Source: a virus
Reading direction: 5' to 3' (one strand)
Virus record (IMG/VR): IMGVR_UViG_3300025115_000013
Coordinates: 1-54,915 of that record
DNA: 54,915 nucleotides
A program made the translations under genes and the position numbers. Shown here piece by piece: positions 28,146 to 42,443 of the stretch (within the stretch, counting starts at the first letter, position 1; each line of letters begins with the position of its first letter). The notes under the pieces were generated by a model. That model was not told the DNA's origin. It saw only the letters and a list, made by a program, of their open reading frames with translations, and did not search any database.

Positions 28146-30254
28146 ATGCCAACACAAAAACCAACCTTAAAGTTAGCAACTCAATATATTCAACAAGTTG
28201 TAGGTAAAACCCCTACACAACAAGAGACCCTTATGCTACTAGACAAGTGGACGACAAATTCGGCATCTTTTAAGAAAGCATTGCAGTGGATTAAAGATAC
28301 CACCCCTCCAACAGCGCAACAGGAAGAAGCACAAGAAAAAAAGCCTTCAATACCTTTAGTTAAAAAATATATGTCTACCGTTATGGGGGAAGCTAACCCA
28401 TCTTCTGCTGAAGTCGCAGCAATATTGCAACAGTGGCAGAATACCCCTGTTGCATTTAACAAAGCAATGCAATCTATGCTGCAATCTATACAAAGTATGC
28501 AGAATACAAAAGCATTAGGACCAAAAGAAATACCTGCTGAACAAGGTGTTGTACCGAGTGTTGATTTCGTAAAAGAATATCTTAAAGTAGTCTCTGGCGA
28601 CGCAAAACCGACTGCTGCCAGAATTAAGACTCTTGTTGACATGTGGGCTAATAATCAGGCAGGTTACCAAGAAGCGCAGGTTCATTTAGCTAAAGTAAAG
28701 GCTGGCCTAACTAAAAAACCGGCACCTGTTGACAAAGGACCAACATTACCAAACCAACTCAACGCAATTGCAAAGCAAACAGAACCAGGAGCAACTGAGA
28801 ACGAATCGTTTAACGATATCGAAGTCGCAGGGTTACTTGCAACCGTTAAACAGGAACTAAAGAAAAAGTTTAATCCTAAAGACCAACCGTGGGGTAGCAA
28901 CCACTCTAAATACAAGAAAGCATATTCACAAGTAGTAAGCAAAACGCGGTCTGTTCAAAACAAAACTGGGTTCTTAACTGCTGTAATCAAAACTCTTAAC
29001 CCAACGTTCAAACCGGGCGCAGGCAAGGTAAGTGCTAAACCGGGAGAGTTCCATTCAATGACTATGCCATCTGACCCGCTAAGTCCGTTTGCCCAAACTA
29101 TGGCTATGTCTCCTGAGAAAAAAGAAAAAGCAACAGCGTTAAAAGCAAAGATCGCAGAGTACGAGGCGTTACTTAAAAAATTAAAAGACGAACAAAAGAA
29201 AGCATCAACTGCACTATCAAAAACGCAGTCCGAAAAAGAAAAATTAGGCGGTATTAACGAAAAATTACTGAAGTACTTTTCGTTCATTGAGAAGAACTGT
29301 AGCCAATACTTAGCCGCAGTTAAAGAAGCTAACGGAAGGTTATTATTTCGTGGACAAGACGACGCCGCGCAGCCGATCTTCGTTGCGTACCCAAGGCTAG
29401 ATCGTGAACCAAAAGATAGCGATCCAGAAGCACAAAAACTCATAGACAAATACTTGTCTGCCTTAGGTTTTAAAGCACTGCGGAGTAACAGTTTATTCAC
29501 TACGTCAAGTGAAAATAACGCAAGTAATTACGGTACTGTATATGCTATCTTCCCTAAAAATGGTTTTGAATATACCTGGTCAACCAAACACGACGATTTA
29601 GTTATTCATAGCGTTCACGACATCGGTGGCGACGAAGAAGACACCGATGATGTGTATTACAATTACGAAGATTGGCAACGGCAGTTCTCTGATTATGCCG
29701 AGGAATTAGACAGAGCAATAGAAGACGACCCGTCTATGTTTAACATAGCAGACGAAGACATTGAAGACGAAGATGTGTTCTATAAAAATCTAAAAAAGTA
29801 TATAACTGCTATAACTAAAATGCCCGAATACAAGGTATTCAAAGCAGCATATAACAAGTACTACGACCTCGATACGTACAACAATAGTGCTGCAGAATTT
29901 CACCAGAAATTTGCTATTATGGCAGAAGCATTCATTAAATTTATGAATGTTAGCAAATTTAAACTCTTATCAGCTGCCGAACTTAAACAGCTTAATAAGA
30001 AGATCGAACATGCTAAAAAGTCATCAGCCGAACCTAAAGGTAATGAGATCAAGGCTAAAGCACAGTCTGCAATTAAGTCTTTTGGTTTTGTAAAAGAAAA
30101 TTTACCGGCAGCACTAAAGGCAAGGCACGAAGTTATGGTAGTCGGAGAATATATTGCAGTTAACTATGAGCAATTTAGTAACGAGATAGAACAGTACTTT
30201 ATTAAACCAAGTAAGACAACTAAAGTTTCTAAGCCAACCGCTAAGAAAAAGTAA
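28146..30254 (+). CDS. Large protein with N-terminal repeats and a likely ADP-ribosyltransferase-like domain
   Basis: Residues about 5-185 hold three copies of a ~50-residue helical repeat (VKKYMSTVMGEANPSSAEVAAILQQW and relatives). A coiled coil follows (about 325-370). Then LLFRGQDD, LFTTSSENNASNYGTVYAIFP and FEYTWS resemble the R-S-T-S core of ADP-ribosyltransferases. The acidic C-terminal part is Asp/Glu-rich. At 702 aa it is close in size to the T4 virion protein Alt (682 aa), which modifies host RNA polymerase, and a late promoter precedes it; so an injected Alt-like protein is my best guess. Confidence 0.55.
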   Translation: MPTQKPTLKLATQYIQQVVGKTPTQQETLMLLDKWTTNSASFKKALQWIKDTTPPTAQQEEAQEKKPSIPLVKKYMSTVMGEANPSSAEVAAILQQWQNTPVAFNKAMQSMLQSIQSMQNTKALGPKEIPAEQGVVPSVDFVKEYLKVVSGDAKPTAARIKTLVDMWANNQAGYQEAQVHLAKVKAGLTKKPAPVDKGPTLPNQLNAIAKQTEPGATENESFNDIEVAGLLATVKQELKKKFNPKDQPWGSNHSKYKKAYSQVVSKTRSVQNKTGFLTAVIKTLNPTFKPGAGKVSAKPGEFHSMTMPSDPLSPFAQTMAMSPEKKEKATALKAKIAEYEALLKKLKDEQKKASTALSKTQSEKEKLGGINEKLLKYFSFIEKNCSQYLAAVKEANGRLLFRGQDDAAQPIFVAYPRLDREPKDSDPEAQKLIDKYLSALGFKALRSNSLFTTSSENNASNYGTVYAIFPKNGFEYTWSTKHDDLVIHSVHDIGGDEEDTDDVYYNYEDWQRQFSDYAEELDRAIEDDPSMFNIADEDIEDEDVFYKNLKKYITAITKMPEYKVFKAAYNKYYDLDTYNNSAAEFHQKFAIMAEAFIKFMNVSKFKLLSAAELKQLNKKIEHAKKSSAEPKGNEIKAKAQSAIKSFGFVKENLPAALKARHEVMVVGEYIAVNYEQFSNEIEQYFIKPSKTTKVSKPTAKKK

Positions 30255-30992
30255 CTACTCTAATCCACGCTTTTGTTTAGCTAATTGAACCGCAGCTTGT
30301 GCGGCTGGCGTTAACGGAGATGCCAAAAATCTTTTAAGTTTCCTTGCGGCTTCACGCATAAGAACCGTAACTTCCTCTTCAGACTTTCGATCTGTCATTC
30401 GAGATACCATCTGCCGTTGAGTTTGTTTAAGGTTATTGTCTACTAATGCAAATTGATCATCAAACATCATTGCATAAAAACTTTCGTGCTTTTTAGTTGC
30501 TTGATATGCTCTTGCAAAATATTTAGGGTCAACTGGGCGATCGCGATCTTTTGGATCTGTCGCATTAGCAAACCTGTCTTTTGCTCGTTCCCACGCTAAC
30601 TTCATTTCAACATCGACAAATATCATAAATGTTTGATATCCAACTGACTCTAATTCTCGTTTCAAATTCATTAAACTTTCATAATCGCGGCCAGTTGTAT
30701 TGATAATTAAACCCAACATTTCTTGCTGTAAAATTGTTTGTTTGCGACGAGTAGCTTGTAAACTTTGCTTATACCCTTGGTTGTCGTGAGAAATATTTGC
30801 TTTTGCTCGTTGCAAATATGCAAGGGTGTGGTCTATGTCCTGTAATTTAAGACCAGCAGCTTTTAATCCAAGAGCTTTTAATACTGCATTTTTACCAGCG
30901 CCTGGCGGGCCAGCTAAAAATACAGCCTTAAATATCCCCGGATCTCTAAAGCCTTCGTCTAAATCTGCCGTATAAAATTCGTTTAATTGCAT
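30255..30992 (-). CDS. P-loop kinase-like protein, 245 aa
   Basis: Walker A is FLAGPPGAGKNAV, with Asn in place of Ser/Thr after Lys. The layout resembles zeta-toxin-like or polynucleotide kinase-like phage proteins (a DIDHTL near residue 53, an RAKDRF arginine-rich lid). The target is unknown. It converges on the 702-aa gene with no gap; similar kinase genes neighbour such virion-protein genes in other T4-like phages. Confidence 0.72.
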   Translation of the reverse strand: MQLNEFYTADLDEGFRDPGIFKAVFLAGPPGAGKNAVLKALGLKAAGLKLQDIDHTLAYLQRAKANISHDNQGYKQSLQATRRKQTILQQEMLGLIINTTGRDYESLMNLKRELESVGYQTFMIFVDVEMKLAWERAKDRFANATDPKDRDRPVDPKYFARAYQATKKHESFYAMMFDDQFALVDNNLKQTQRQMVSRMTDRKSEEEVTVLMREAARKLKRFLASPLTPAAQAAVQLAKQKRGLE

Positions 30993-31010
30993 AAGAATAT
31001 TTAGTCAAAA

Positions 31011-31034
31011 TAATAGGGACCGAAGTCCCTATTA
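31011..31034 (-). terminator. UUCG-tetraloop terminator after the tmRNA
   Basis: On the minus strand the 10-bp stem TAATAGGGAC / GTCCCTATTA closes a TTCG tetraloop and is followed by a T-rich stretch. It would end transcription of the tmRNA and the RNA array before the kinase gene. Confidence 0.88.
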
Positions 31035-31037
31035 TTA

Positions 31038-31330
31038 CTATTTTGGGTTATAAGGGATAGTTCCCCCAGAGTTATCATGCTGCTAGAGCATATACCTCAT
31101 TGTTAGCTGCGTTTGCAGTTATAGTTTTGTTTTCTTCGACCGGGTCTGCCGACCTTCATGGCTATGAGCCATGCGTCAACACAGAATACCCCAATCCTAC
31201 GGCTTCAAACTCTTGCCGAGCGCCATTCGTTCTATTTAACCCTTTGTCGATTCCTTTCACCCCCTCAGTGGTGGAGGTGGCGGCATCCGAGAGCCGCGTC
31301 CAAAAAGCTCTTAATAACTAAGGTTTACGC
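31038..31330 (-). ncRNA. ssrA: Circularly permuted tmRNA (ssrA)
   Basis: Read on the minus strand, the gene starts with the T-arm and 3' acceptor strand (CACCTCC, discriminator A, CCA at 31269-31271), then only four bases, then the 5' acceptor strand GGGGGTG (31258-31264) and the tmRNA-like GAAAGGAATCGACA. The acceptor has a G3-U70 pair, the alanine identity element. The tag frame at 31075-31116 encodes ANAANNEVYALAA and TGA. This order is that of permuted, two-piece tmRNAs, which rescue stalled ribosomes and tag proteins for proteolysis. The T-loop is atypical (8 nt). Ends are approximate. Confidence 0.88.
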
Positions 31331-31414
31331 TGTTTTTAATCTCCCTCTTTTAAGTCCTAGTATGTCAAATTTATTGTCATTTGGCAATAAAATAAAAATT
31401 TTGTTTTCCGTCAT
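31325..31414 (-). CDS. Possible tiny protein, 29 aa
   Basis: An ATG-started frame (MTENKIFILLPNDNKFDIL) without a clear Shine-Dalgarno site, just upstream of the tmRNA. Weak support. Confidence 0.25.
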   Translation of the reverse strand: MTENKIFILLPNDNKFDILGLKRGRLKTA

Positions 31415-31932: not shown

Positions 31933-32019
31933 TGGCGGAAGGACGGGGACTCGAACCCCGACAACCATTTCTGGTCGGCAGATTAGCAATCTGCTGGAAT
32001 ACCATTATCCGACCCTTCC
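31933..32019 (-). tRNA. tRNA-Ser(GCT)
   Basis: Anticodon arm GCAGA-TTGCTAA-TCTGC, long variable arm, acceptor GGAAGGG pairing TCCTTCC, CCA encoded. Reads AGC/AGU. Confidence 0.93.
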
Positions 32020-32027
32020 TTAATCTT

Positions 32028-32102
32028 TGGCTCCGAAGGGTGGGATCGAACCACCGACACACGGATTAACAGTCCGTCGTTCTGCCGCTGAACTACTTCG
32101 GA
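32028..32102 (-). tRNA. tRNA-Asn(GTT)
   Basis: Anticodon loop CTGTTAA, acceptor TCCGAAG/CTTCGGA, canonical T-loop TTCGATC, CCA encoded. Confidence 0.93.
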
Positions 32103-32122
32103 ATTGCATCACTATTTATCGA

Positions 32123-32199
32123 TGGTGCTGGGTGAAGGACTCGAACCTTCATCATTCTCCTTGTAAGGGAGATGTCTAACCTCTCAAACCAACCCAGCA
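32123..32199 (-). tRNA. tRNA-Val(TAC)
   Basis: Anticodon arm TCTCC-CTTACAA-GGAGA, acceptor TGCTGGG/CCCAGCA, T-loop TTCGAGT, CCA encoded. Confidence 0.92.
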
Positions 32200-32362
32200 T
32201 TGTTCTGTTTTTCTTGCAGCTTGTCTTTATCGGTCACAGGTTCTTCTTTAGCAGGCTTTTTAAAGATTGCATCCCATCGTTCCTCAAACTCTTTTTGCGG
32301 AATACTAACTGGTCTGGGAGTGCTACCTTTGCCTGCTTCATGTGCCATACTGTGTCCTATCT
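32200..32362. other. Spacer without a recognised gene
   Basis: About 160 bp between tRNA-Val and tRNA-Gly. On the minus strand there is no convincing start or ribosome site, and plus-strand frames across here are tRNA antisense shadows. Confidence 0.4.
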
Positions 32363-32436
32363 TGGAGCGGATAGCCAGAATCGAACTGGCGTCTTATGCT
32401 TGGCAAGCATAGGTAATACCATTATACGATATCCGC
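32363..32436 (-). tRNA. tRNA-Gly(GCC)
   Basis: Anticodon arm TATGC-TTGCCAA-GCATA, acceptor GCGGATA/TATCCGC, T-loop TTCGATT, CCA encoded. Confidence 0.94.
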
Positions 32437-32444
32437 ATACTTCT

Positions 32445-32518
32445 TGGTGGAGGTGGAGAGAATCGAACTCTCACGAAAAGCTTGCAAAGCTTCCAGGCTC
32501 CCATTACATCACACCCCC
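32445..32518 (-). tRNA. tRNA-Ala(TGC)
   Basis: Anticodon loop TTTGCAA. The acceptor GGGGGTG/CACCTCC, with its G3-U70 pair, is the same as that of the phage tmRNA. CCA encoded. Confidence 0.93.
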
Positions 32519-32525
32519 AATGTTC

Positions 32526-32601
32526 TGGTGCCCCCGGACGGATTCGAACCGCCGACATCCAGTTTACAAAACTGGCGCTCTACCAACTGAGCTACAAGGG
32601 C
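32526..32601 (-). tRNA. tRNA-Thr(TGT)
   Basis: Anticodon arm CCAGT-TTTGTAA-ACTGG, acceptor GCCCTTG/CGGGGGC with two G-U pairs, CCA encoded. Confidence 0.93.
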
Positions 32602-32653
32602 AAATCTTTTACTACAGAGGTATTTATCCCAATAAACAACTCTGTTAAAATCT

Positions 32654-32731
32654 TGGTCGGACATGTAGGATTCGAACCTACGTTATGCTGCATCCCAAAT
32701 GCAGTGCCATACCAGGCTAGGCGAATGTCCG
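32654..32731 (-). tRNA. tRNA-Pro(TGG)
   Basis: Anticodon arm CTGCA-TTTGGGA-TGCAG, acceptor CGGACAT/ATGTCCG, CCA encoded. Confidence 0.93.
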
Positions 32732-32747
32732 TAATTCTTTACTAAAC

Positions 32748-32858
32748 CATATAGAAGTAGATTGAACGGCGTAGGTTATAGTGCCGCTCATCTGGCAGGA
32801 CGACTTGAGAACGCTTCGGCTGCCACCGTATGGCCTCTCGTCAATCTGCTTTTATATG
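32748..32858 (-). ncRNA. Structured element E0 before tRNA-Leu
   Basis: An 18-nt terminal stem (CATATAAAAGCAGATTGA against TCAATCTACTTCTATATG, 16 of 18 pairs) closes a region with inner helices: GACGA/TCGTC, GCCA/TGGC, and CGGC/GCCG. No coding frame. The right arm runs into the CCA end of tRNA-Leu. Confidence 0.6.
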
Positions 32859-32940
32859 GTGCCCGGGGCCGGACTCGAACCGGCACGCCATAAGCGAGGG
32901 ATTTTAAGTCCCTTGCGTCTACCTATTTCGCCACCCGGGC
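32857..32940 (-). tRNA. tRNA-Leu(TAA)
   Basis: Anticodon arm AGGGA-CTTAAAA-TCCCT with a long variable arm (class II), acceptor GCCCGGG/CCCGGGC, CCA encoded. Confidence 0.94.
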
Positions 32941-33121
32941 ATAAATTCTTAAAGATCAATTACTACCTTACTGCACTACTTATGCTTTATATTATACAGG
33001 AATTTTATTTATTGTCAACCTATTTTCAAACTGTTTTACTACGTTATCAAATTCTTCATTAGTGATACTCTTTGCTTTTGCTTTGCAATATATCTAAGTA
33101 TATACCTTTATAAAATTTTGT

Positions 33122-33742
33122 CTATTGTTTTGGACAAGATTCTAATTTTTCAATTTCATCTAACAATTGTAAAATTCTCCCAACAATTCCTTCGCTGTAC
33201 GTTCTGTTAAACACCGATTCATCACTGCCCGGAGACGAAACAAGTTGACATATACTTGATAGTATCGGGTACTGTATTCGAACCTCCCATTCACCATTTT
33301 CTGTCATTGATAATGAATGGGAGTTGCGTGTTGGGATGTTCAATGAATGAAATAATTTTTCTTTTTCATGATCGATATCCATATTATACGAACCGAAGTT
33401 AAAAAGTACCCCGTTTTTTAACATCTCAACCCCGTTTATAATCATTGACGAGATAGTCAATGACATATTTTCTACTATTTTATTATCAACACATACTACA
33501 TCGTTATCTGTTTTGTTACAGAATTTAATAGATAGAAAAAACTCAGACTGAATCGGGTCAACGGTAGTGCTAGTAATCTCTGCTTCGTTAATAACCAGGT
33601 CATTAAAAATTACGTTATTGTTAATACTAACGCAAACCAAAGGCCAGTTAGTTTTAGCCGAAACCGAAGCTAATTTTAAAATAACGTCGGCTTTTTTATG
33701 ATTGTATAATTCTTTTATCTCAGGCGGAATTAGTGTTTTCAT
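33122..33742 (-). CDS. Hypothetical protein, 206 aa
   Basis: A soluble protein with beta-rich N-terminal two-thirds and a helical C-terminus (VGRILQLLDEIEKLE). It is not recognised. It overlaps the radical SAM gene upstream by 23 nt, so the two are coupled and may act together. The 180 bp downstream to tRNA-Leu hold no gene I can see. Confidence 0.6.
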   Translation of the reverse strand: MKTLIPPEIKELYNHKKADVILKLASVSAKTNWPLVCVSINNNVIFNDLVINEAEITSTTVDPIQSEFFLSIKFCNKTDNDVVCVDNKIVENMSLTISSMIINGVEMLKNGVLFNFGSYNMDIDHEKEKLFHSLNIPTRNSHSLSMTENGEWEVRIQYPILSSICQLVSSPGSDESVFNRTYSEGIVGRILQLLDEIEKLESCPKQ

Positions 33743-35216
33743 AATAATTGTCTAAATACTTTTGTAAATTGACCTCAATTTGTGTTAAATTTAAAAGTTG
33801 TTGATTACCAACAAAATATCCTAATTCAACCGTTACAAAGTGCTGTATAAGTCGTCTCCTAACTCGCTCGGGATACGTATACAACGGATCCGACTTAACA
33901 GTCCAGAATACTTTAGAATCTGCATTTTCAATTTGATACTTGTCTTTATTTTTTACTAAAGGCATAAATTCATTCAAAAACAAAGGGGGGCCCATATCTA
34001 TCCGTACTGTCCCATTTGCTACGTATTTTTGACAAGCTATGATAAACCGAAGAGTATTTAGAAACCTCTCTTCCGTTTCATTATAAAACCCCGAAAACAT
34101 CAACAATGTTGATTTAAGATTGTGTTGAGATAGTTGCTCTAGTTCATCTAATGTATCTTCTACCGTAACTTGCTTTCTCATTGCAGCCAGAACGTCGTTA
34201 TCTCCACTTTCTGTGCCTATAGTTAGATTATGTGCACCCGATGATACCAGTAAACTATAATGATCTGCTCGCAGTTTGCTCTGCGGCCTTGTTATGTATT
34301 GACCGATCCACGTAATTTTTTTATCGTTTGATGAATTATAATCTGATATTTTTTCTAATAATTCATAAAAAGTTTTTGTAGACCCATTTACTAAACTATC
34401 AGTAAAATCAAAATTGTATATCTGATACCGGTTAATTTGTAGTACCATTTCAGAAAATACATCGGTTGCTGTTCTATACTTGTATTTTCCAAAAAATCCT
34501 GCAACATCACAGAACGTGCAGTCCCTAACACACCCTGTACTACCTGTAATAAGCAGAGCTTTATTTCCGTGCCATAGATATAGATCTAGATCATAATCAT
34601 CATAATTAGGCACCGGGGATGTGTAGTTACTGTTAACAATGTTAAATTTATCAAAGGTACAATCTGCCGTGTTGCTTCTGACTTTGGTCGACAAAATTTT
34701 CGGTAACTCGGTAAACTCATTACTAAGAATTGCATAATCCGCGAACTTTTTATTCGAAAGCAAGGCATGGAACTGCGTTGATTCCTCAAGTCTTGATATT
34801 AGCCCAGTTAACGAAGTGCTATTAATTATAGCTCCTTTTCCTCCAATTATAACTGTAACTTCCGAAATAGTTTTAATGTATTTAGATAGTACAAAAGCTG
34901 CTCGCTGCTGTAAATTAGAGAACACACTAAGACCCACAATTGTGGTCTTATTGTTAATATAAGTGTCATACACATACTTTGCCCACACAGTTAACGATTC
35001 TATGTCTTCAATGGTTACCTCGTAAGGTTCAAAGATTTTTACCTCATTGATATATCTATCTAAACGTCTGTTACATTTGTTAAATAGATCTATCCCTAAG
35101 TCAATGGTTTTGCAAGAAAAACCATAGCTTTCTACTGCGCCTTTTAGTATTGCAGGAGCAGCAGGTGGCTTTTCATTAAATGCTGAAGGCAACGAAAAAA
35201 TTATAATATCAACCAT
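33720..35216 (-). CDS. B12-binding-type radical SAM protein
   Basis: The radical SAM cluster is CVRDCTFC near residue 230. The N-terminal ~180 residues have the layout of a cobalamin-binding domain (DIIIFSLPSAFNEKPP start, GLSVFSNLQ, VIIGGKGA), as in B12-dependent radical SAM enzymes. IGTESGDN matches the SAM-contact region. The start is taken as ATG 35216; a GTG at 35243 is also open. Such enzymes often methylate or build side chains; the substrate is unknown. Confidence 0.85.
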   Translation of the reverse strand: MVDIIIFSLPSAFNEKPPAAPAILKGAVESYGFSCKTIDLGIDLFNKCNRRLDRYINEVKIFEPYEVTIEDIESLTVWAKYVYDTYINNKTTIVGLSVFSNLQQRAAFVLSKYIKTISEVTVIIGGKGAIINSTSLTGLISRLEESTQFHALLSNKKFADYAILSNEFTELPKILSTKVRSNTADCTFDKFNIVNSNYTSPVPNYDDYDLDLYLWHGNKALLITGSTGCVRDCTFCDVAGFFGKYKYRTATDVFSEMVLQINRYQIYNFDFTDSLVNGSTKTFYELLEKISDYNSSNDKKITWIGQYITRPQSKLRADHYSLLVSSGAHNLTIGTESGDNDVLAAMRKQVTVEDTLDELEQLSQHNLKSTLLMFSGFYNETEERFLNTLRFIIACQKYVANGTVRIDMGPPLFLNEFMPLVKNKDKYQIENADSKVFWTVKSDPLYTYPERVRRRLIQHFVTVELGYFVGNQQLLNLTQIEVNLQKYLDNYYENTNSA

Positions 35217-35315
35217 ATCTAGTATATATCCCTTAACTAACACATCACAAGATCTTATTTTCTTTAAACAATTTTACTAAATAAATAATATACATACTTC
35301 ATATGGAGAAATAAT

Positions 35316-35663
35316 ATGAGACTTTCTTGTTACAAACATTCGACCTTGGTTTTTTCGTCCACCAACGAAGCCCTCGATAGTATCTTCCTTTCTGTCAGAG
35401 AATCATTCCCTGCCAACATCAGTGAAATTCTTATTAATACAACTAACCGAAATTTATCTTTTTACTTACCAAAATCAAAGATTTTAGTTGTTTGCAGCGA
35501 AAATAACGCATATCCGCCCGAGATGGTCAACGCTCACAAATGGCCAGCAGATTCCAAATGGATACAAGTAAATGTACACGAGTTATCATTTGATGAGATA
35601 ACTGAACTTAAAAATGCACCCGAGTCTGATGCAGCTTTTAATGCATGTGGATACACAAAGTAA
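35316..35663 (+). CDS. Hypothetical protein, 115 aa
   Basis: A plus-strand gene with a GGAGAAATA site and a late-promoter-like CTAAATAAATA about 40 nt upstream. The protein is compact and mixed alpha/beta; it is not recognised. It starts a two-gene plus-strand unit with the gene at 35668. Confidence 0.62.
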   Translation: MRLSCYKHSTLVFSSTNEALDSIFLSVRESFPANISEILINTTNRNLSFYLPKSKILVVCSENNAYPPEMVNAHKWPADSKWIQVNVHELSFDEITELKNAPESDAAFNACGYTK

Positions 35664-35667
35664 ATAA

Positions 35668-36381
35668 TTGTTTAGGTTAGGTTTCCTTATTGCATCAGCT
35701 ATCAATACACGCTTCGGCGTGTATGATACTGCTTCTCGTTTGCAGCAAACATTAGACACTATAGCAAGCATCAAAGCTCGCTGTAAAGATCCACACATTA
35801 CGTTAATCGAGATGGCTGCAATCCCGTTAACAGATGAACAACGAGCTACGTTAAAAGCCAGTGTTCATGTGTTGATAGAATTTTCTAACGATGAAGTTGT
35901 AAAACAAATATCTAAGAGCAACAACTGGAATATTATTAAGAACATGACCGAAATGCTTTGTTTCCGCCACGCCTTAAAACTTATGCAAGGCACAGAGTTT
36001 TACAAAGAAGTTACTCGTTTTGTAAAAGTGTCTGGGCGGTATAAACTAAACACCGACTTTAAAGAAAGTGTTATGAAGAAAGCCGGCGATCGTGTAGTCT
36101 TTGCCTCACGCCGTAAAAGTCAATTCCCATCTAACATTACCAAAGGTGTAACTGAACAATTCATGAGTCGCTGCTGGAGTTTTCCTGCTAAAGATATTGC
36201 TGCGGTAGAAAAAATGTACGAAGCGATGCTCAACCATATGCAGCAAGTACTAGGGCAAGGTGGTTACATAGATATCGAACATTTGTTGTTTACTTACAGC
36301 AAAATGTTCGACATATACGAAGTTAAAAAAGTTGGTGTTGAAGGTAATATTGGTCCGAACGGTGCTTTAGTTAGAGACTAG
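35668..36381 (+). CDS. Conserved hypothetical, possible glycosyltransferase-like, 237 aa
   Basis: The N-terminus FRLGFLIASAINTRFGVYD resembles small phage proteins of the nucleotide-sugar transferase type, and RYKLNTDF and SRCWSFPA look like conserved loops. No catalytic DxD is clear. There is no nearby ATG, so TTG 35668 is the best start. The 3' end overlaps the convergent GT-like gene by 4 nt, which supports a surface-glycan context. Confidence 0.5.
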   Translation: MFRLGFLIASAINTRFGVYDTASRLQQTLDTIASIKARCKDPHITLIEMAAIPLTDEQRATLKASVHVLIEFSNDEVVKQISKSNNWNIIKNMTEMLCFRHALKLMQGTEFYKEVTRFVKVSGRYKLNTDFKESVMKKAGDRVVFASRRKSQFPSNITKGVTEQFMSRCWSFPAKDIAAVEKMYEAMLNHMQQVLGQGGYIDIEHLLFTYSKMFDIYEVKKVGVEGNIGPNGALVRD

Positions 36382-37145
36382 AAGTAAAAGCACCCGGGAC
36401 GATTAAAAAAGCACTCATTTTCTTGTAACGTTCTACGAGCACTAAAAGTTTCTAACACTGTCTCTTTACCTAGACCTTGTGCAATGCTGTAAGTAAAAGT
36501 TTGGTTACTTAAGAAGCCGTCGGCTCCCGCAATAACTTGCGCTAACTCTAAGAAATCTTTAACTGGGTAATACGGAATATCTACACCAAACGTATTCTTA
36601 AAATCTTCGTGTTCTTGCGGTAGCCCAACAAATACCCCGTCTGTAGTTAACCGATTGGTCATGATTAAATTCATCCAGATGTTGTTAGTATTTGGTGCTG
36701 CACTTCTCCATCGTGGACTTCGAGCAACAACAAACTTCGCAACACGTTTGGGATTAGGCACTGTTAACCAAGGTTTAATAAGATCAGCATCTGTAAACGG
36801 AATGTTGAACGTTGTATAGAATGCACCTAAGAAATTACCTTTGTACTTGCTATGAATAACGCCGCGAAACTCGTCTAAATCTACGTCAATCTTATGTGTC
36901 TGTTCGTCGTAAACTGCTACTGAATTAATATACTCCTGGGCTTCTAATAGAGGCTTTAGTAAGCCAAAGTCTTTCTGTGATAACTTACCTACGTACTCAG
37001 GTGGAACTCCGCCATTTCCATATTTTTGTATCACGTTAGGTATATTGTTTAACTTAACGAAATAACCCCCTCGACCGTAGTGTTTAACTACTGCAAGTGA
37101 ATAAATTAGATCGCCTAAGTTTCCGGAATTAGAGAATGTTTTCAT
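36378..37145 (-). CDS. Glycosyltransferase-like protein (GT9/GT-B style)
   Basis: The 255-aa protein starts SNSGNLGDLIYSLAVVKHYG, the loop typical of heptosyltransferase-like GT-B folds. The C-terminal part has FVGLPQEHEDF and GFLSNQTFTYSIAQGLGK, as in the donor-binding half of that family. It probably transfers a sugar; donor and acceptor are unknown. Confidence 0.68.
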   Translation of the reverse strand: MKTFSNSGNLGDLIYSLAVVKHYGRGGYFVKLNNIPNVIQKYGNGGVPPEYVGKLSQKDFGLLKPLLEAQEYINSVAVYDEQTHKIDVDLDEFRGVIHSKYKGNFLGAFYTTFNIPFTDADLIKPWLTVPNPKRVAKFVVARSPRWRSAAPNTNNIWMNLIMTNRLTTDGVFVGLPQEHEDFKNTFGVDIPYYPVKDFLELAQVIAGADGFLSNQTFTYSIAQGLGKETVLETFSARRTLQENECFFNRPGCFYF

Positions 37146-37173
37146 TTAATTATTTGATTTCTTTAGCCAGAAA

Positions 37174-37748
37174 TTACTTTCGTTTTAATACAACTTCAAT
37201 CGAGCACTCTGTATTTGGTAACAATGTTTGGTCGCCGGCTTGGTCTAAGTCAAAAACTCATTGATTAGTTGTATTTTTCTATCGTAACAGTTGTGGAGAA
37301 TTGCTTTAGCAAATCAATCAAGTTAATAGATACTGGCGACCAACTTCTATCTTTACAGATTGTAAATGTGTGCTTATGATCAGCATTACCTTTACTCGGC
37401 CAAATTCCACGTTCATACATATCTTCATCGGGCAGTTACTATTAAGTACCCCTCTGGTTTTAATACACGCAGCCAGTTAGATAATGCAACCGGTACATCT
37501 ATCATATGCTCTAAGCAATGGCTTGAATGAACAAAATCAAAAGAATTATCCGGAATAGTCTGTAGATACTGAGCATCACCATTCTCTATATCCCAGGAAG
37601 TAATACTGTCTATCCCAATAAACGAGCTCATAACTTTCTCTAGAGAATCGGATCCAGCTCCAACATCTAATCCGTCGCCCACAAAGTAAGCCGAGTGGAA
37701 ATTTCCATCATTGAACCTACGTTTTGCTGCTTTGCTTTGCTCAAACAT
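37174..37748 (-). pseudogene. Frameshifted SAM-dependent methyltransferase
   Basis: Frame 1 (37748-37425) reads a class I methyltransferase: GLDVGAGSDSL (SAM loop), SSHCLEHM and LKPEGYLIVT. It then stops, but another frame continues the family sequence as PDEDMYERGIWPSKGNADHKH to about 37260. A third frame ends DQTLLPNTECSIEVVLKRK at 37174. Two frameshifts have broken the gene. Confidence 0.7.
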
Positions 37749-37754
37749 TAGGAA

Positions 37755-37946
37755 TCATTCTGTGTCTTTAGGAACGCGAACTGCTTTAGAACGGGTTGCT
37801 GCTTCGTGCATTGCAATACCCATCGATCGCATAAAGAAATTATTCTCAGCTTTGGTTTTTCCATGCATTAATGCTGCTTGCCCTTTAATTGACTTATGCA
37901 ACGTCATACCCTTAGGGCACTTTAACGCTTTTTGATTGTCAAACAT
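37755..37946 (-). CDS. Hypothetical basic protein, 63 aa
   Basis: MFDNQKALKCPKGMTLHKSIKG starts a small basic protein; similar short proteins are found in T4-like phages without known role. AAGGA precedes the ATG and CATAAATA late-promoter-like sequence lies about 30 nt upstream. Confidence 0.65.
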   Translation of the reverse strand: MFDNQKALKCPKGMTLHKSIKGQAALMHGKTKAENNFFMRSMGIAMHEAATRSKAVRVPKDTE

Positions 37947-37997
37947 GATATTCCTTTTTAAAAGTAAAAATATTTATGGACTGCACAGGCTACAAAA

Positions 37998-38024
37998 AAT
38001 AAAGGACCCAAAGGGCCTTTATTT
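37998..38024. terminator. Bidirectional terminator
   Basis: The stem AAATAAAGG/CCTTTATTT extends into CCC/GGG around an AAA loop, with A and T runs on both sides, between the HNH gene and the 63-aa gene. Confidence 0.8.
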
Positions 38025-38038
38025 GATTACTCACAAAC

Positions 38039-38599
38039 CTATGTTTCGCGTGCTCTACTATTTTCTGGAACGAACTGTAACAAGAACTCCATTTGATCAG
38101 CAAGAATGTTTCTGTTCTTTAAGATCAATGCTTCTTCTGGAGTTGGTGTGTACGGAACATACAACAACTCAAGTTGGGTGTCCTTTAACAACTTGTCACC
38201 TTTATGGCTGTTGCACTTACGGCATGCACACACTATGTTCATCCACGAATGTTGACCACCCTTTGACGACGGAACAATGTGATCCATAGTTGCTAAGTCG
38301 CCTTTACAGTGGCGGCCGCAGTATGCACACAAGTATCGGTCACGTCGAAATAAGTTTTCAGCAGTTAAAGCCGGAGTCTTATGTCTACGGGAGAACTTAC
38401 TCTTTACCCCAATGATGCTAGGAATAGTAATATTAGATTGTTCTCCAGTCATACGGCTGGTTCCGCCATGGAATGTAAAAGAATGTGATCCGTATTCCCA
38501 AGCTATAAGGTTCTTGTACTTTAAGACTACAGAATCTTGCCAGTGGCTCCACCGTTGTGGGTGGCCGTCAGCAGAACAAATTAATATGTTTGGTACCAC
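38039..38599 (-). CDS. HNH endonuclease, 186 aa
   Basis: Residues about 85-135 hold the HNH core with zinc ribbon: CAYCG, MDHIVPSSKGG, NIVCACRKCNSHKG. The N-terminal part (LAWEYGS...SIIGVKSKF) matches the conserved form of this endonuclease in T4-like phages. It may be a homing enzyme or have a role in DNA processing. Confidence 0.88.
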   Translation of the reverse strand: MVPNILICSADGHPQRWSHWQDSVVLKYKNLIAWEYGSHSFTFHGGTSRMTGEQSNITIPSIIGVKSKFSRRHKTPALTAENLFRRDRYLCAYCGRHCKGDLATMDHIVPSSKGGQHSWMNIVCACRKCNSHKGDKLLKDTQLELLYVPYTPTPEEALILKNRNILADQMEFLLQFVPENSRARET

Positions 38600-38652
38600 A
38601 ATACTACCCCTTTGCTAAAATGGGGTACTCCTATACCCCGGTTAAAAATCTT

Positions 38653-38743
38653 TGGCGGAGACCCAGGGAGTTGAACCCTGTGAGGATATTACTACCCTCT
38701 ACGGATTAGCAATCCGCTGCATTACCGTCCTGCCCGATCTCCG
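38653..38743 (-). tRNA. tRNA-Ser(GCT), second copy
   Basis: Anticodon arm GCGGA-TTGCTAA-TCCGT, class II variable arm, acceptor CGGAGAT/GTCTCCG, T-loop TTCAACT, CCA encoded. It differs in sequence from the copy at 31933. Confidence 0.9.
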
Positions 38744-38798
38744 TTTTCCTACGAACCTTTTCTGGATGATGCTCTGGAAGGGTATCATACTTAAAACT

Positions 38799-38882
38799 TG
38801 GCGGAGGATAATAGACTCGAACTATCAACCTTTCGGTGGGACGGTTTTCAAGACCGTGTGTTGCCCCGCAACCCTATCCTCC
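38799..38882 (-). tRNA. tRNA-Ser(TGA)
   Basis: Anticodon arm ACGGT-CTTGAAA-ACCGT, class II variable arm, acceptor GGAGGAT/ATCCTCC, CCA encoded. Confidence 0.93.
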
Positions 38883-38883
38883 G

Positions 38884-39513
38884 CTATTTTTCGTATAAAC
38901 TCGTAAACCCTTTTCCGTATCTATTTATAGCATACTCTAAGTACTTCTTAATATCTTTCTCAAACAAACAAACTATGTCAGGGTTAGACTGTTGTTTAAT
39001 ATTCCACTGAGGCGTTTTATAGCCTTTGATCTCGTATATTACTCCATTGATCACAAAGTCGGGATAATATTTTCTTTCTTTGCTCTCCCAGATATATGTC
39101 CGAACTTCTTTACACCGTTCAATTAATATATTATGATCTAAATGATAAAGCACAAACGCTAACTCCCAACTAGAATCACAAAAAATATTTTTATACCAAC
39201 CTTTTTTACCTCTGCCAGATCCTTGGCGCAGCCCACCGTTACTTATCTTTGCTTTCTCAGAAATTTTTCGTTTCCTGTCAACTTCCTTTTCGGGCGTTAG
39301 TCCTTTCCCTAAAGTTGATCCCTTAACCCCTTTGTTCCACGCAGTGTGTAACCCAGTTACACCTTTATTCCATGCAGGTAACCCTTTAGGTCTGTGAGCA
39401 TTTGGCGATTTATGTCTCTGTACACGATTCGGATTCTCTTTACAGAAAGGAGAGTGCGCTCCTAACCCACCTGGGTTACTGAATAATCGATTACAATATT
39501 CACAAGTAAGCAT
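38884..39513 (-). CDS. Homing endonuclease, zinc finger plus PD-(D/E)xK-like domain
   Basis: The 209-aa protein begins with a zinc finger (CEYCNRLF, then HSPFC), continues with Trp-Asn-Lys-Gly repeats of NUMOD type (PAWNKGVTG, AWNKGVKG), and ends in a nuclease domain: SSWELAFVLYHL, YYPDFVINGVIYEIKGY. That domain resembles the one in the uvsW intein-gap enzyme. It lies between tRNA-Ser and tRNA-Lys, with CATAAATA late-promoter-like sequence before its start. Confidence 0.82.
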   Translation of the reverse strand: MLTCEYCNRLFSNPGGLGAHSPFCKENPNRVQRHKSPNAHRPKGLPAWNKGVTGLHTAWNKGVKGSTLGKGLTPEKEVDRKRKISEKAKISNGGLRQGSGRGKKGWYKNIFCDSSWELAFVLYHLDHNILIERCKEVRTYIWESKERKYYPDFVINGVIYEIKGYKTPQWNIKQQSNPDIVCLFEKDIKKYLEYAINRYGKGFTSLYEK

Positions 39514-39558
39514 AATATTATTTATGCCTCACAATCAAATCTGCTGCATTAAACCATG

Positions 39559-39774
39559 CTAAAACACTCTGCTTGCAAAATGCTTTAGGCTGGTAGGAGC
39601 ACAGGGATTCGAACCCTGACCTGGCAGATTAAAAGTCTGCTGTGCTTGACCGTTGACACCATACTCCCGTTGTGTTTCCATCTTTTCTTTACGGCGAGTT
39701 GCTTTGGTTGTTTTACCATGAGCACCCGCCTTTCGTTTATGGACATGTATGCCCATTGGGTTTCTTAGTTTCAT
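39559..39774 (-). CDS. Small basic protein overlapping tRNA-Lys
   Basis: MKLRNPMGIHVHKRKAGAHG starts a very basic protein with an AAGGAG site before the ATG, coupled to the 37-aa gene. The first ~35 codons look coding; the rest of the 71-codon frame runs through the whole tRNA-Lys gene (39591-39668). Either the true stop was lost or the frame overlaps the tRNA. Confidence 0.5.
   Translation of the reverse strand: MKLRNPMGIHVHKRKAGAHGKTTKATRRKEKMETQREYGVNGQAQQTFNLPGQGSNPCAPTSLKHFASRVF
39591..39668 (-). tRNA. tRNA-Lys(TTT)
   Basis: Anticodon arm GCAGA-CTTTTAA-TCTGC, acceptor GGGAGTA/TGCTCCT, T-loop TTCGAAT, CCA encoded. Confidence 0.92.
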
Positions 39775-39784
39775 TTGCTTCTCC

Positions 39785-39898
39785 TTAGATAAATTTGTTA
39801 ATGCTATTACGATGCTTACAGCTCATTTTCTTGTAATACTTTCCTTTACACCCTGGGTTACGCTTGTCAGTAAAAACCTTACGATAAAGTGCTTTCAT
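39785..39898 (-). CDS. Small basic protein, 37 aa
   Basis: MKALYRKVFTDKRNPGCKGK is followed by more Lys, Tyr and two more Cys. A good GGGAG site and a sigma70 promoter lie upstream, so it is probably a real early gene. Its basic Cys-containing makeup suggests nucleic acid or metal binding. Confidence 0.65.
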   Translation of the reverse strand: MKALYRKVFTDKRNPGCKGKYYKKMSCKHRNSINKFI

Positions 39899-39919
39899 GT
39901 TGCTCTCCCATAAAATAAT

Positions 39920-39948
39920 AGTTTACTACATTTTGGTTTATTTGTCAA
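39920..39948 (-). promoter_or_regulatory. Sigma70 promoter inside the RNA array
   Basis: Minus strand TTGACA, 17-nt spacer, TAAACT. It would drive the 37-aa and 71-aa genes and tRNA-Lys. Confidence 0.78.
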
Positions 39949-39958
39949 CCGAAAAATT

Positions 39959-40036
39959 TGGCCTCAGAGACAGGACTCGAACCTGCATAATCCTGTTTAG
40001 AAGACAGGTGCCTCATTCCAATTAGACTACTCTGAG
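39959..40036 (-). tRNA. tRNA-Arg(TCT)
   Basis: Anticodon arm CCTGT-CTTCTAA-ACAGG, acceptor CTCAGAG/CTCTGAG, T-loop TTCGAGT, CCA encoded. Confidence 0.93.
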
Positions 40037-40042
40037 ATTGTT

Positions 40043-40120
40043 TGGCAGGGGTAGTTGGATTCGAACCAACGATACTGATTTCAAAGACCAGTGCCTTAGG
40101 CCGGACTAGGCGATACCCCA
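40043..40120 (-). tRNA. tRNA-Gln(TTG)
   Basis: Anticodon loop CTTTGAA, acceptor TGGGGTA/TACCCCT with the first pair open as in tRNA-Gln, T-loop TTCGAAT, CCA encoded. Confidence 0.9.
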
Positions 40121-40126
40121 ACTGTT

Positions 40127-40202
40127 TGGTCGCTAGAGTGACACTCGAAATCACACAGACATCGTTATGAGCGATGCGCTCTCCCTCTTAAGCTATCTAG
40201 CG
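40127..40202 (-). tRNA. tRNA with CAT anticodon (elongator Met or Ile2)
   Basis: Anticodon arm CATCG-CTCATAA-CGATG, acceptor CGCTAGA/TCTAGCG, CCA encoded. The T-arm is irregular. Methionine and lysidine-modified isoleucine cannot be told apart by eye. Confidence 0.82.
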
Positions 40203-40204
40203 TA

Positions 40205-40279
40205 TGGAGTGAGCGACAGGATTTGCACCTGCATAAGACTGGTTTGCAATCAGCCGCCTAGCTATTCAGCCACGCTCAC
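40205..40279 (-). tRNA. tRNA-Cys(GCA)
   Basis: Anticodon loop TTGCAAA with a weak stem, acceptor GTGAGCG/CGCTCAC, T-loop TGCAAAT (G at position 55), CCA encoded, 2 nt from the next tRNA. Confidence 0.82.
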
Positions 40280-40421
40280 ATTGTATTTGTATGCTCTGCT
40301 GTCTCTACTCAGCTCTAGTGCGTAGCTGCACACCCTTGACAGTCCCTAACTTGTTGCTTACGGGATTTCTCTGTTGTCAGTCCTAGTTTATCGCTAGTCC
40401 GGTTCCTAGGTAGGAACATTC
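40280..40421. other. Hairpin-rich spacer
   Basis: No gene. Inverted pairs such as TGACA...TGTCA and CCTAG...CTAGG suggest folded RNA of the same kind as the larger elements near 46 kb. Confidence 0.35.
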
Positions 40422-40498
40422 TGGTGCCCTGCTTCAGAGTCGAACTGAAACACACTCACTTTTGAAGAGAGCCGCTTTACCAAATTGCGTAGCAGGGC
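40422..40498 (-). tRNA. tRNA with CAA anticodon in a class I body (or TCA)
   Basis: Acceptor GCCCTGC/GCAGGGC, D-arm CGC/GCG, T-arm TTCAG/CTGAA and CCA are good. The best anticodon register is CTCTC-TTCAAAA-GTGAG, giving CAA (leucine), but the variable loop has only 5 nt, unlike normal tRNA-Leu. Shifting by one gives TCA, an opal-reading Trp-like tRNA, with a poorer stem. Confidence 0.75.
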
Positions 40499-40505
40499 AG
40501 TATTA

Positions 40506-40580
40506 TGGTGCTCAAGTAAGGAATCAAACCTTAGACTCTGTCGTACCAAGACAGCGGTATACCATTTACCTACAAGAGCA
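40506..40580 (-). tRNA. tRNA-Thr(GGT)
   Basis: Anticodon arm CTGTC-TTGGTAC-GACAG, acceptor TGCTCTT pairing TTGAGCA, T-loop TTTGATT, CCA encoded; it abuts the next gene. Confidence 0.85.
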
Positions 40581-40677
40581 TGGTGGACTATGAAGGAATC
40601 GAACCTTCGAGCTGCCGTCGCATATTCAGTACCATACTTAAAGGGAATCGAACCCCAATACTCGCCATTTATAGCCC
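40581..40677 (-). tRNA. Composite tRNA-like gene with two T-arms
   Basis: The ends are good: acceptor GGGCTAT/ATAGTCC (7 of 7), discriminator A and CCA, T-arm GAAGG-TTCGATT-CCTTC. Inside is a second T-arm-like hairpin (GGGG-TTCGATT-CCC) and no normal anticodon arm, so the length is 97 nt. If that inner loop is the anticodon loop it would read CGA. It is a fusion, an interrupted tRNA or a decayed one. Confidence 0.6.
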
Positions 40678-40683
40678 AGTTAC

Positions 40684-40755
40684 TGGTCCCCGCAGTAGGA
40701 TTCGAACCTACACAAGCTGGTTTAGGAAACCTGCTGCTGCTCCATCAGTGCGGAG
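40684..40755 (-). tRNA. tRNA-Arg(CCT)
   Basis: Anticodon loop TTCCTAA with stem CAGGT/ACCAG (one mismatch), acceptor CTCCGCA/TGCGGGG, T-loop TTCGAAT, CCA encoded. Confidence 0.85.
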
Positions 40756-40761
40756 ATTAAT

Positions 40762-40885
40762 TGGTGCCGAGAGTAGGATTCGAACCTACAGTGATTGCCA
40801 AATCTAGCATTCTCTTGCGGAGAATACAACGGAATCGAACCGTATAACGCCTGCCGGCGTGTGTCTACCGTTTCACCATCCCAGC
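40762..40885 (-). tRNA. Interrupted leucine-type tRNA, 124 nt
   Basis: Ends GCTGGGA/TCTCGGC, CCA, and T-arm GTAGG-TTCGAAT-CCTAC are canonical, and the D-arm (GGTGAAACGGTAGACAC) is of tRNA-Leu type. Between D-arm and the presumed anticodon region lie about 50 extra nt forming three hairpins: ACGCC-GGCA-GGCGT, ACGG-TTCGATT-CCGT and ATTCTC/GAGAAT. The anticodon cannot be read with confidence. Confidence 0.62.
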
Positions 40886-40891
40886 AATTTT

Positions 40892-40969
40892 TGGTGCCCG
40901 AGGTGAGATTCGAACTCACAAAACTCTTGTCCCTCAAACAAGCGACTTTGCCAATTTGTCCACAAGGGC
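40892..40969 (-). tRNA. tRNA with GAG anticodon in a class I body
   Basis: Anticodon arm CTTGT-TTGAGGG-ACAAG gives GAG (leucine CUC/CUU), but the variable loop is only 6 nt. D-arm GAC/GTC, T-arm GTGAG-TTCGAAT-CTCAC and CCA are normal; the acceptor has two mismatches. Confidence 0.8.
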
Positions 40970-40977
40970 ATGTTACT

Positions 40978-41053
40978 TGGTCCCACCACTCCGTAACGAT
41001 CGGAGATCCTCGGATTTTCAGTCCGCTGCATAGACCATCTTTGCTATAGTGGG
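40978..41053 (-). tRNA. tRNA-Phe(GAA) with altered T-loop
   Basis: Anticodon arm GCGGA-CTGAAAA-TCCGA, acceptor CCCACTA/TGGTGGG, CCA encoded. The T-loop is ATCGTTA instead of TTCRANY. Confidence 0.88.
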
Positions 41054-41061
41054 ATTGTCTT

Positions 41062-41136
41062 TGGTGCCTAGCGACAGACTTGCACTGTCCTCTGATGCTT
41101 ACAAGACATCTATGACGCTATCTACACTTGCTAGGC
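41062..41136 (-). tRNA. tRNA-Thr(TGT), second copy
   Basis: Anticodon arm GATGT-CTTGTAA-GCATC, acceptor GCCTAGC/GCTAGGC, T-loop TGCAAGT (G at 55), CCA encoded. Confidence 0.85.
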
Positions 41137-41143
41137 AAAATTT

Positions 41144-41228
41144 TGGAGGAGGATAATGAAATCGAATCATCGCCCTTTCGGACGGGCCTGCTTTCGAAAC
41201 AGGTTTTAGCCCAGCTAACCTATCCTCC
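41144..41228 (-). tRNA. tRNA-Ser(CGA)
   Basis: Anticodon arm CCTGT-TTCGAAA-GCAGG, class II variable arm with CCC/GGG stem, acceptor GGAGGAT/ATCCTCC, T-loop TTCGATT, CCA encoded. Confidence 0.92.
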
Positions 41229-41233
41229 ATGTT

Positions 41234-41317
41234 TGGAAGCCGTGGTAGGGCTTGAACCTACATGCCCGAAGGCCCCACTTTCAAAGAGTGGTGTGTCTAC
41301 CATTCCACCACACGGCT
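41234..41317 (-). tRNA. Class II tRNA with TTG anticodon
   Basis: The body is leucine-like (D-arm GTGGAATGGTAGACAC, long variable arm GGCCTTCGGGC), but the perfect anticodon arm CCACT-CTTTGAA-AGTGG gives TTG, which reads the glutamine codon CAA. Acceptor AGCCGTG/CACGGCT, CCA encoded. Confidence 0.82.
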
Positions 41318-41323
41318 ATTGTT

Positions 41324-41399
41324 TGGTAGTCCAGGCTGGACTCGAACCAGCATAATCTTCGATGTCAACGAAGGTACTCACCTCTCATACCACTGGACT
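41324..41399 (-). tRNA. tRNA-Val(GAC)
   Basis: Anticodon arm CTTCG-TTGACAT-CGAAG, acceptor AGTCCAG/CTGGACT, T-loop TTCGAGT, CCA encoded. Confidence 0.92.
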
Positions 41400-41403
41400 A
41401 TAT

Positions 41404-41480
41404 TGGTGCGCCGTATAGGAGTCGAACCTATATCATCCTGATTAAGAGTCAGGTATAATCAGCCATTATACGAACGACGC
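41404..41480 (-). tRNA. tRNA-Lys(CTT)
   Basis: Anticodon arm CCTGA-CTCTTAA-TCAGG, acceptor GCGTCGT/ACGGCGC, T-loop TTCGACT, CCA encoded. Confidence 0.92.
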
Positions 41481-41693
41481 GATGTTAGTAAATTACTACT
41501 AGTCTACGGTGTTTTATAGTTGCTGTTGCAGCAACCCACGGGTAGAAAAAGAAATCTAAGTAAAACTGTAATAGCAATATCGGCACTACATTACAAACAT
41601 TGTAGTATGATTCATATTGTTTCTGCATCTTATACCGATGCAAGCTTGTTACATTTGCGGTCATAATATGTATTTACCGCAACAGTAAGTATT
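41481..41693. other. Non-coding spacer with hairpins
   Basis: No gene. Contains TTGCTG-TTG-CAGCAA and TTGCGGT...ACCGCAA inverted repeats, again suggesting structured RNA between tRNAs. Confidence 0.4.
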
Positions 41694-41766
41694 TGGCACC
41701 CCATGAGCGAATCGAACGCCCGCCAGTGAGTTTCGAAGACTCTCCGCCGACTCCATCGGATGAGGC
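41694..41766 (-). tRNA. tRNA-Arg(TCG)
   Basis: Anticodon arm AGAGT-CTTCGAA-ACTCA, acceptor GCCTCAT/ATGGGGT, T-loop TTCGATT, CCA encoded. Confidence 0.9.
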
Positions 41767-41772
41767 AATGTT

Positions 41773-41875
41773 TGGTGGCCACAGAACAGGAGTTTAACCT
41801 GCTTAGTCAGAGACATAAGGGTTACACCTCGAGGATTCCCTTATCGTGCTGTCACGGCTGCTACGCATCTGCGCC
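41773..41875 (-). tRNA. Interrupted tRNA, probably Tyr-type, 103 nt
   Basis: CCA, a T-arm with loop TTAAACT, an acceptor (GGC..GCAG against CTGT..GCC with a bulge) and a short Tyr-type variable arm (GTC/GAC) are visible. The anticodon stem ATAAGGG/CCCTTAT is 7 bp and the loop has 16 nt holding a CCTCGAGG palindrome, followed by TGTAA. If the palindrome is an insert, the anticodon would be GTA. Confidence 0.55.
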
Positions 41876-41881
41876 ATTGTT

Positions 41882-41953
41882 TGGCCTCCCGTACACGAGT
41901 TGAACGTGTCATAGATGATTCGTAGTCATCAAGCCGGTTCCCCCGGACAGGAG
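41882..41953 (-). tRNA. tRNA-Arg(ACG)
   Basis: Anticodon arm GATGA-CTACGAA-TCATC; A34 would need deamination to inosine by host TadA. Acceptor CTCCTGT/ACGGGAG, T-loop TTCAACT, CCA encoded. Confidence 0.88.
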
Positions 41954-41961
41954 TTTATGTT

Positions 41962-42035
41962 TGGCAGGTCTAGAAGGAATCGAACCTCCGCCCGGTGTTT
42001 TGGAGACACTTACGCTACCATTACGCCATAGACCT
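41962..42035 (-). tRNA. tRNA-Trp(CCA)
   Basis: Anticodon loop CTCCAAA, acceptor AGGTCTA/TAGACCT, T-loop TTCGATT, CCA encoded. Its 5' end overlaps the stop of the 92-aa gene. Confidence 0.93.
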
Positions 42036-42299
42036 ATTTTGTTCTATTAAGAATACACCACGACAGTTATTGGCTGATAACTTGGAAATCTCATTGTTAT
42101 GGTCTTCTGCTATGTCAATAATTCGTTTTCTGTACTTCGCAACTGCATGAGGATCCATTGCAATAGCATATGCGATTTGTTGGCACTCATATGAGTATTC
42201 TTTAAACTTGCACATTGCAGGAGTCTTGCAAGTTTTAGTTATGTCACACTCCCAACACGGGGAGGCAAGAAGTGTATTAATCAGCTTATCTAGTATCAT
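42021..42299 (-). CDS. Hypothetical Cys-rich protein, 92 aa
   Basis: The N-terminal half has six cysteines (CWECDITKTCKTPAMCKF, YECQQ), suggesting a metal site; the rest is helical. A perfect late promoter (42319) and a GGAC site precede it. The last codons overlap tRNA-Trp by 15 nt. Confidence 0.65.
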   Translation of the reverse strand: MILDKLINTLLASPCWECDITKTCKTPAMCKFKEYSYECQQIAYAIAMDPHAVAKYRKRIIDIAEDHNNEISKLSANNCRGVFLIEQNRSMA

Positions 42300-42318
42300 T
42301 ATTTTTGTCCGTGTATTT

Positions 42319-42326
42319 TATTTATA
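42319..42326 (-). promoter_or_regulatory. T4-type late promoter
   Basis: Perfect TATAAATA on the minus strand, 20 nt before the start codon of the 92-aa gene. Confidence 0.72.
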
Positions 42327-42350
42327 ACTGAATCGGGACTTGTTAAAACT

Positions 42351-42427
42351 TGGTGCGAGCGGTCAGATTCGAACTGACAAACACCAACTTCTAAGGATGG
42401 CGGCTATACCGATTCGCCTACGCTCGC
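42351..42427 (-). tRNA. tRNA with TAG anticodon in a class I body
   Basis: Anticodon loop CTTAGAA gives TAG (leucine CUA family). The variable loop has only 5 nt and the anticodon stem has one T-T mismatch. Acceptor GCGAGCG/CGCTCGC, T-loop TTCGAAT, CCA encoded. Confidence 0.82.
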
Positions 42428-42443
42428 AAAATTACTTTAATCA

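Follow-up and report, generated by a model that had tools for sequence, protein, structure and literature searches.

A probably functional, circularly permuted tmRNA gene of betaproteobacterial type in a fragment of a T4-like jumbo phage

In trans-translation by two-piece tmRNA, as set out in PMC11915505 and as generally understood, tRNA-processing enzymes cut the transcript into two base-paired RNAs, the molecule is charged with alanine, and SmpB delivers it to stalled ribosomes, where a tag is added. Phage tmRNAs, permuted ones included, are already in print, and the gene described here adds one more. Earlier examples were tabulated in PMC4131195; PMC11915505, which describes the Rfam model RF04321, tabulates 79 bacteriophage tmRNAs; and PMC9004378 reports tmRNA in 402 of 18,146 phage genomes, with 53 two-piece forms among 133 unique structures. 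In IMG/VR, 113 stretches fit one strict junction pattern; almost all of them contain a permuted-tmRNA junction and in many the tag can be read, and at least two (L019, L021) look like false matches. On these reported and observed counts the rarity that the initial annotation ascribed to permuted phage tmRNAs does not hold, least of all for aquatic phages. PMC9004378 gives a parallel case, in the Methylophilales phage Melnitz and other aquatic phages, of a lytic myophage that carries a permuted tmRNA in complete form; the Melnitz tmRNA is of alphaproteobacterial type and linked to a glutamine riboswitch, neither of which is seen here. These particular genes were unreported in the literature searched, a scope without the PMC9004378 supplement in which the 53 are listed.

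The window, that is, the whole stretch of 54,915 nucleotides analyzed here (IMG/VR record IMGVR_UViG_3300025115_000013), represents part of the genome of a T4-like jumbo phage. Its proteins match a DnaB-like helicase, a primase, a UvsX-like recombinase, a T4-type single-strand binding protein and homing endonucleases, and the nearest named relatives of these proteins belong to jumbo phages, among them PA5oct, Atu_ph07, Phosso and Vibrio phage 2.275. All 37 tRNA genes reported by ARAGORN are on the minus strand, and the locus under study sits at the low-coordinate end of this tRNA array (31933-45629). It is close to certain that the locus, on the minus strand from about 31382 to 31009, is a phage-encoded circularly permuted (two-piece) tmRNA gene, as had been claimed for positions 31038-31330. 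RF04321 matches 31075-31332 on the minus strand over its complete model (1-213) with 90.4 bits against a cut-off of 47, and the E value of 3.7e-16, computed over the whole 54,915-nt contig and all 4227 Rfam families, excludes a chance match. The betaproteobacterial model RF01850 spans 31010-31382 at full length with an E value of 9.5e-21 and, despite that full-length alignment, scores 69 bits, under its curated cut-off of 84. The search with permuted Rfam models that the initial annotation had suggested thus gave a match above cut-off with RF04321 and a score below it with the betaproteobacterial model. RF01850 is nonetheless the best-fitting group-specific model, ahead of the cyanobacterial (33.4 bits) and alphaproteobacterial (32.5 bits) ones; the standard one-piece model RF00023 gives 11.1 bits here, short of its cut-off, and its top score anywhere in the contig (36.4 bits) falls on a tRNA-Ala. 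ARAGORN misses the gene both by default and with relaxed thresholds, which returned other tags only, and the locus is therefore an example of a gene that escapes this program and is caught by the merged model RF04321. Comparison of the tmRNA DNA with phage and plasmid records gave zero matches, and the closest local match among the loci compared was a cellular one (L213), 48 nt at 90%. The positions first given for the gene agree with these alignments within the vagueness of the RNA ends, except that the boundary at 31038 omits a terminal hairpin at 31009-31036.

The acceptor (3') piece, placed on the minus strand at 31269-31345 by the RF04321 and RF01850 alignments with an approximate 5' boundary, comprises the 3' strand of helix 2, the T arm, the 3' acceptor strand CACCUCC, A73 and a CCA ending at 31269. 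In the sequence a 4-nt intervening segment, CUGA (31265-31268, minus strand), leads from the CCA end to G1 at 31264, where the coding piece begins (31009-31264, minus strand, from the same two alignments); this piece holds the 5' acceptor strand GGGGGUG, the D-loop, a helix 2 strand, the PK1 region, the tag frame and the 3' hairpins. The CCA end is thus encoded upstream of G1 on the minus strand, and the arrangement that had first drawn attention to the locus, a CCA preceding the 5' acceptor strand by four bases (CTGA), stands. All seven acceptor pairs are standard, G3-U70 is present and A73 precedes the CCA. In both of its strands the acceptor stem is identical to that of the phage tRNA-Ala(TGC) that ARAGORN places in the same-strand array at 32445-32518 (minus strand), G3-U70 included, in agreement with the initial annotation; the acceptor stem of a second phage tRNA-Ala(TGC), at 43545-43620, differs from that of the tmRNA. 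Such a shared stem is what a tRNA-Ala look-alike would display, but an E value of 3.7e-16 over the full model, together with a tag frame and a terminal hairpin where they are expected, refutes a look-alike or chance match in practice and leaves it a negligible probability.

The CTGA spacer is identical in five cellular loci (L208, L213, L229, L242 and L259). Spacer length was considered as a special feature and dropped, because 4 nt is also found in 48 of 60 cellular loci and is ordinary in Rhodocyclales. The cellular junction search behind that count permitted spacers of 2-9 nt only, and at least two of the 60 loci (L223, L240) resemble chance matches, lacking GGAC ahead of the T arm. The same length occurs in 10 of 128 viral rows, which count this contig twice (as itself and as L001).

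The T arm, GCGGC-UCUCGGAU-GCCGC (31280-31297, minus strand), has five standard pairs and an 8-nt loop without the UUCRA motif, and this loop, UCUCGGAU, is absent from every other locus tabulated for T-loops. UUCRA is also missing in alpha-type members (T-loop GGCAGUA), and T-loops without it are frequent among the permuted tmRNAs from Pelagibacter and from viral contigs, which weakens the reading of the loop as a mark of decay.

The tag reading frame, assigned by translation and by the RF04321 consensus, occupies 31075-31116 on the minus strand and reads ANAANNEVYALAA-stop, with UAACU just before it, the resume codon GCA at the resume position of the model and a terminal ALAA-stop; its location downstream of the 5' acceptor strand (31116-31075) confirms what had been proposed. 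The tag differs from the ANDERFALAA of most Rhodocyclales tags that were read. Fifty nucleotides past the tag stop, a hairpin of 12 pairs with a UUCG loop (31009-31036, minus strand; z -4.84 for folding of 31005-31045) is likely to be the 3' end of the RNA or a terminator; the terminator scan reports it on the plus strand only. Terminal hairpins of the Rhodocyclales loci found by the junction pattern usually have 10 pairs, a UUCG loop and a position about 52 nt past the stop, and a UUCG loop caps the best stem in 36 of the 55 cellular loci examined. The five comparable outer (lower) pairs of the stem are AT in the phage and GC in L208, all changed on both sides, and we read these paired differences as probable compensatory change, seen in one phage sequence. 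A betaproteobacterial source or host is likely, given the resemblance of the UUCG hairpin, the shared CTGA and the best local match to L213. On the upstream side lies a weak sigma-70-like promoter candidate, TTGCCA-17-CATACT with TG before the second hexamer (31359-31387, minus strand); the region contains two such sites against a shuffle mean of 2.8, so there is no excess.

Relative to the betaproteobacterial two-piece tmRNA (RF01850; Rhodocyclales and the loci L208, L213, L242 and L259), the phage gene thus has the same permuted order and CTGA spacer and is alike in acceptor and T stems, tag position and a UUCG hairpin about 50 nt past the stop, and departs from it in its RF01850 score (69 bits, below 84), its 8-nt T-loop and an additional hairpin of about 60 nt before the tag. 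Proximal helix 2 pairs GCUUUUU/AAAGGGU were read by eye, and the first two groups of helix 2 pairs in the RF04321 model each contain a single non-standard pair. In the RF01850 alignment and in the folding, PK1 appears displaced or split by the extra hairpin arm, which extends from the PK1 region to the tag (31138-31196, minus strand). Positions 31134-31199 fold into one long hairpin at -27.0 kcal/mol (z -3.56), with none of 200 shuffles as good, and no second copy was found in the contig or in the loci compared. G1 and the tag lie 148 nt apart, the longest such distance of 75 measured, the other 74 distinct junctions with a recognized tag ranging from 58 to 113 nt; these distances rest on the tag pattern, by which 124 distinct junctions divide into 75 with a tag (this contig included) and 49 without. 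The 8-nt T-loop and the extra hairpin could qualify the gene as a variant.

These same two oddities would be expected if the RNA were processed but defective in tagging, or titrated SmpB, the altered T-loop and the hairpin spoiling tagging so that the molecule blocks the host system or acts as a decoy for it. The tRNA-like-domain-only molecule of mycobacteriophage DS6A, for which a similar role was proposed in PMC4131195, offers a precedent, and both the lack of UUCRA in the 8-nt T-loop and a G1-to-tag distance outside the range of the 74 other tagged loci are in keeping with it. We nevertheless consider a defective or decoy RNA unlikely, as the RNA retains its full tag frame ending in ALAA, its resume context and its 3' hairpins, and T-loops of the non-UUCRA kind are common in the permuted tmRNAs of Pelagibacter and viral contigs. 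A bolder proposal, which we regard as a long shot, is that the extra hairpin is a phage-made control domain that tunes trans-translation to infection and does not merely supply it; such a domain would act on the timing of tag reading or the choice of ribosome, as nuclease bait, or through a contact independent of SmpB. If a working molecule does tolerate the extra hairpin and the T-loop, the gene shows the limits of variability of the tRNA-like and PK1 regions.

Permuted tmRNAs were sought in 16 named jumbo phages, 15 of them picked by replication-protein similarity and XacN1 through a GOLLD match, and were found in two, Phosso and XacN1. In the Phosso record (PV764938.1) an unannotated alpha-type gene lies at 349596-350198, with 108 bits and the tag ANDNVSTKVALAA; XacN1 (AP018399.1) has a beta-type gene at 37231-37530, with 107.8 bits and the tag ANANTFDYALAA. 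Both frames are intact, so that the loss of the tag in relatives, named at the outset as evidence against the claim, did not occur. The present gene adds a beta-type permuted tmRNA to those of jumbo phages, and the two deposited records contain unannotated ones that are open to testing. Phosso shares related replication proteins and an intact tag with this phage and differs in its alpha-type tmRNA and in a spacer of 410 nt from CCA to G1 (L199, 1480-2140). That spacer holds complements of both acceptor strands and their flanks (24 nt at 92% and 20 nt at 100%); judging by the sequence, the Phosso precursor could mask both acceptor strands by folding, or the spacer could have arisen through an inverted duplication of the junction. 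XacN1 resembles this phage in being a jumbo phage with a large tRNA array, a GOLLD RNA and a beta-type permuted tmRNA, and differs in its 114-nt spacer, canonical T-loop and lack of the extra hairpin.

This patchy distribution (2 of 16 named jumbo phages, and none of the 73 IMG/VR records searched among 80 with a related UvsX, most of which are short fragments) is what one would expect of a recently captured host gene or a decaying passenger without a role in infection. We judge such an origin quite improbable: the gene stands at the end of the same-strand tRNA array, and it is far from cellular tmRNAs (48 nt at 90% at best) and has kept its stems and tag nonetheless. An IMG/VR search for relatives of the two genes next to the tmRNA (30255-30992 and 28146-30254) found no stretch encoding one.

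Our preferred reading, to which we assign a probability of roughly 0.8 on the strength of sequence comparisons, is that a T4-like jumbo phage carries here a working two-piece tmRNA gene of the betaproteobacterial type. The sequence itself shows the gene order, the acceptor and T stems, the tag frame and the terminal hairpin. The RF04321 and RF01850 scores, G3-U70, the ALAA-stop, UAACU, the terminal hairpin, the shared CTGA and the tags of Phosso and XacN1 speak for probable function, and the RF01850 score under cut-off, the T-loop, the insert of about 60 nt, the weak promoter, the lack of a detected SmpB and the lack of a close relative via the two neighboring genes count against it. If the gene is functional, a single precursor would be transcribed, host RNase P would cleave at G1, and 3' maturation would strip CUGA, leaving acceptor and coding RNAs joined through the acceptor stem and helix 2. 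Host AlaRS would charge the acceptor via G3-U70, host SmpB would deliver the charged tmRNA to stalled ribosomes, and the ANAANNEVYALAA tag would be appended, with release of the ribosome and passage of the tagged protein to ClpXP. SmpB was found neither in the 55-kb fragment nor in four named jumbo phages, in a search whose control was detected in 10 of 14 genomes, and host SmpB would therefore have to serve. The phage would gain steady recycling of ribosomes while mRNAs are cut and its own array shifts the tRNA supply; alternatively, a phage copy may be of use where the host tmRNA is diluted or cut. The role that PMC9004378 puts forward for its own phage is to keep the hijacked bacterial machinery running or to tag host proteins.

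The contig also encodes a GOLLD RNA (44557-45013, minus strand; 186 bits, above the cut-off of 150), whose variable region contains a nested tRNA-Lys(ttt) at 44875-44947; tRNAs within GOLLD have been published (PMC12286853). A tRNA at 43631-43702 (minus strand) was found by Rfam (40.5 bits) and not by ARAGORN. In XacN1 the tmRNA lies about 1 kb from GOLLD and each is found twice, as terminal repeats predict: a second tmRNA copy is at 356026-356325, and GOLLD is at 38570-38983 and 357365-357778. The copies of both RNAs at 37-39 kb are unannotated in the record, and a term search of the main text of the XacN1 paper (PMC5852040) did not return the word tmRNA. Of the 16 named jumbo phages, three have GOLLD and two have a permuted tmRNA; we make no claim of a link, since XacN1 was chosen via GOLLD and GOLLD is found in none of the 34 IMG/VR records fetched by tmRNA patterns, two of which (L201, L202) have standard tmRNAs.

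Lastly, two further viral loci deserve mention. L203 (1-272, minus strand) is a permuted tmRNA whose 84-nt spacer has a T-arm-like stretch, GGTTCGAATCC, where ARAGORN reports no tRNA. The viral contig L201 (9671-10141, minus strand) carries a one-piece tmRNA with a frame of about 45 residues from the likely resume codon, ending EYALAA-stop, which, as read by eye, is much longer than usual tags.
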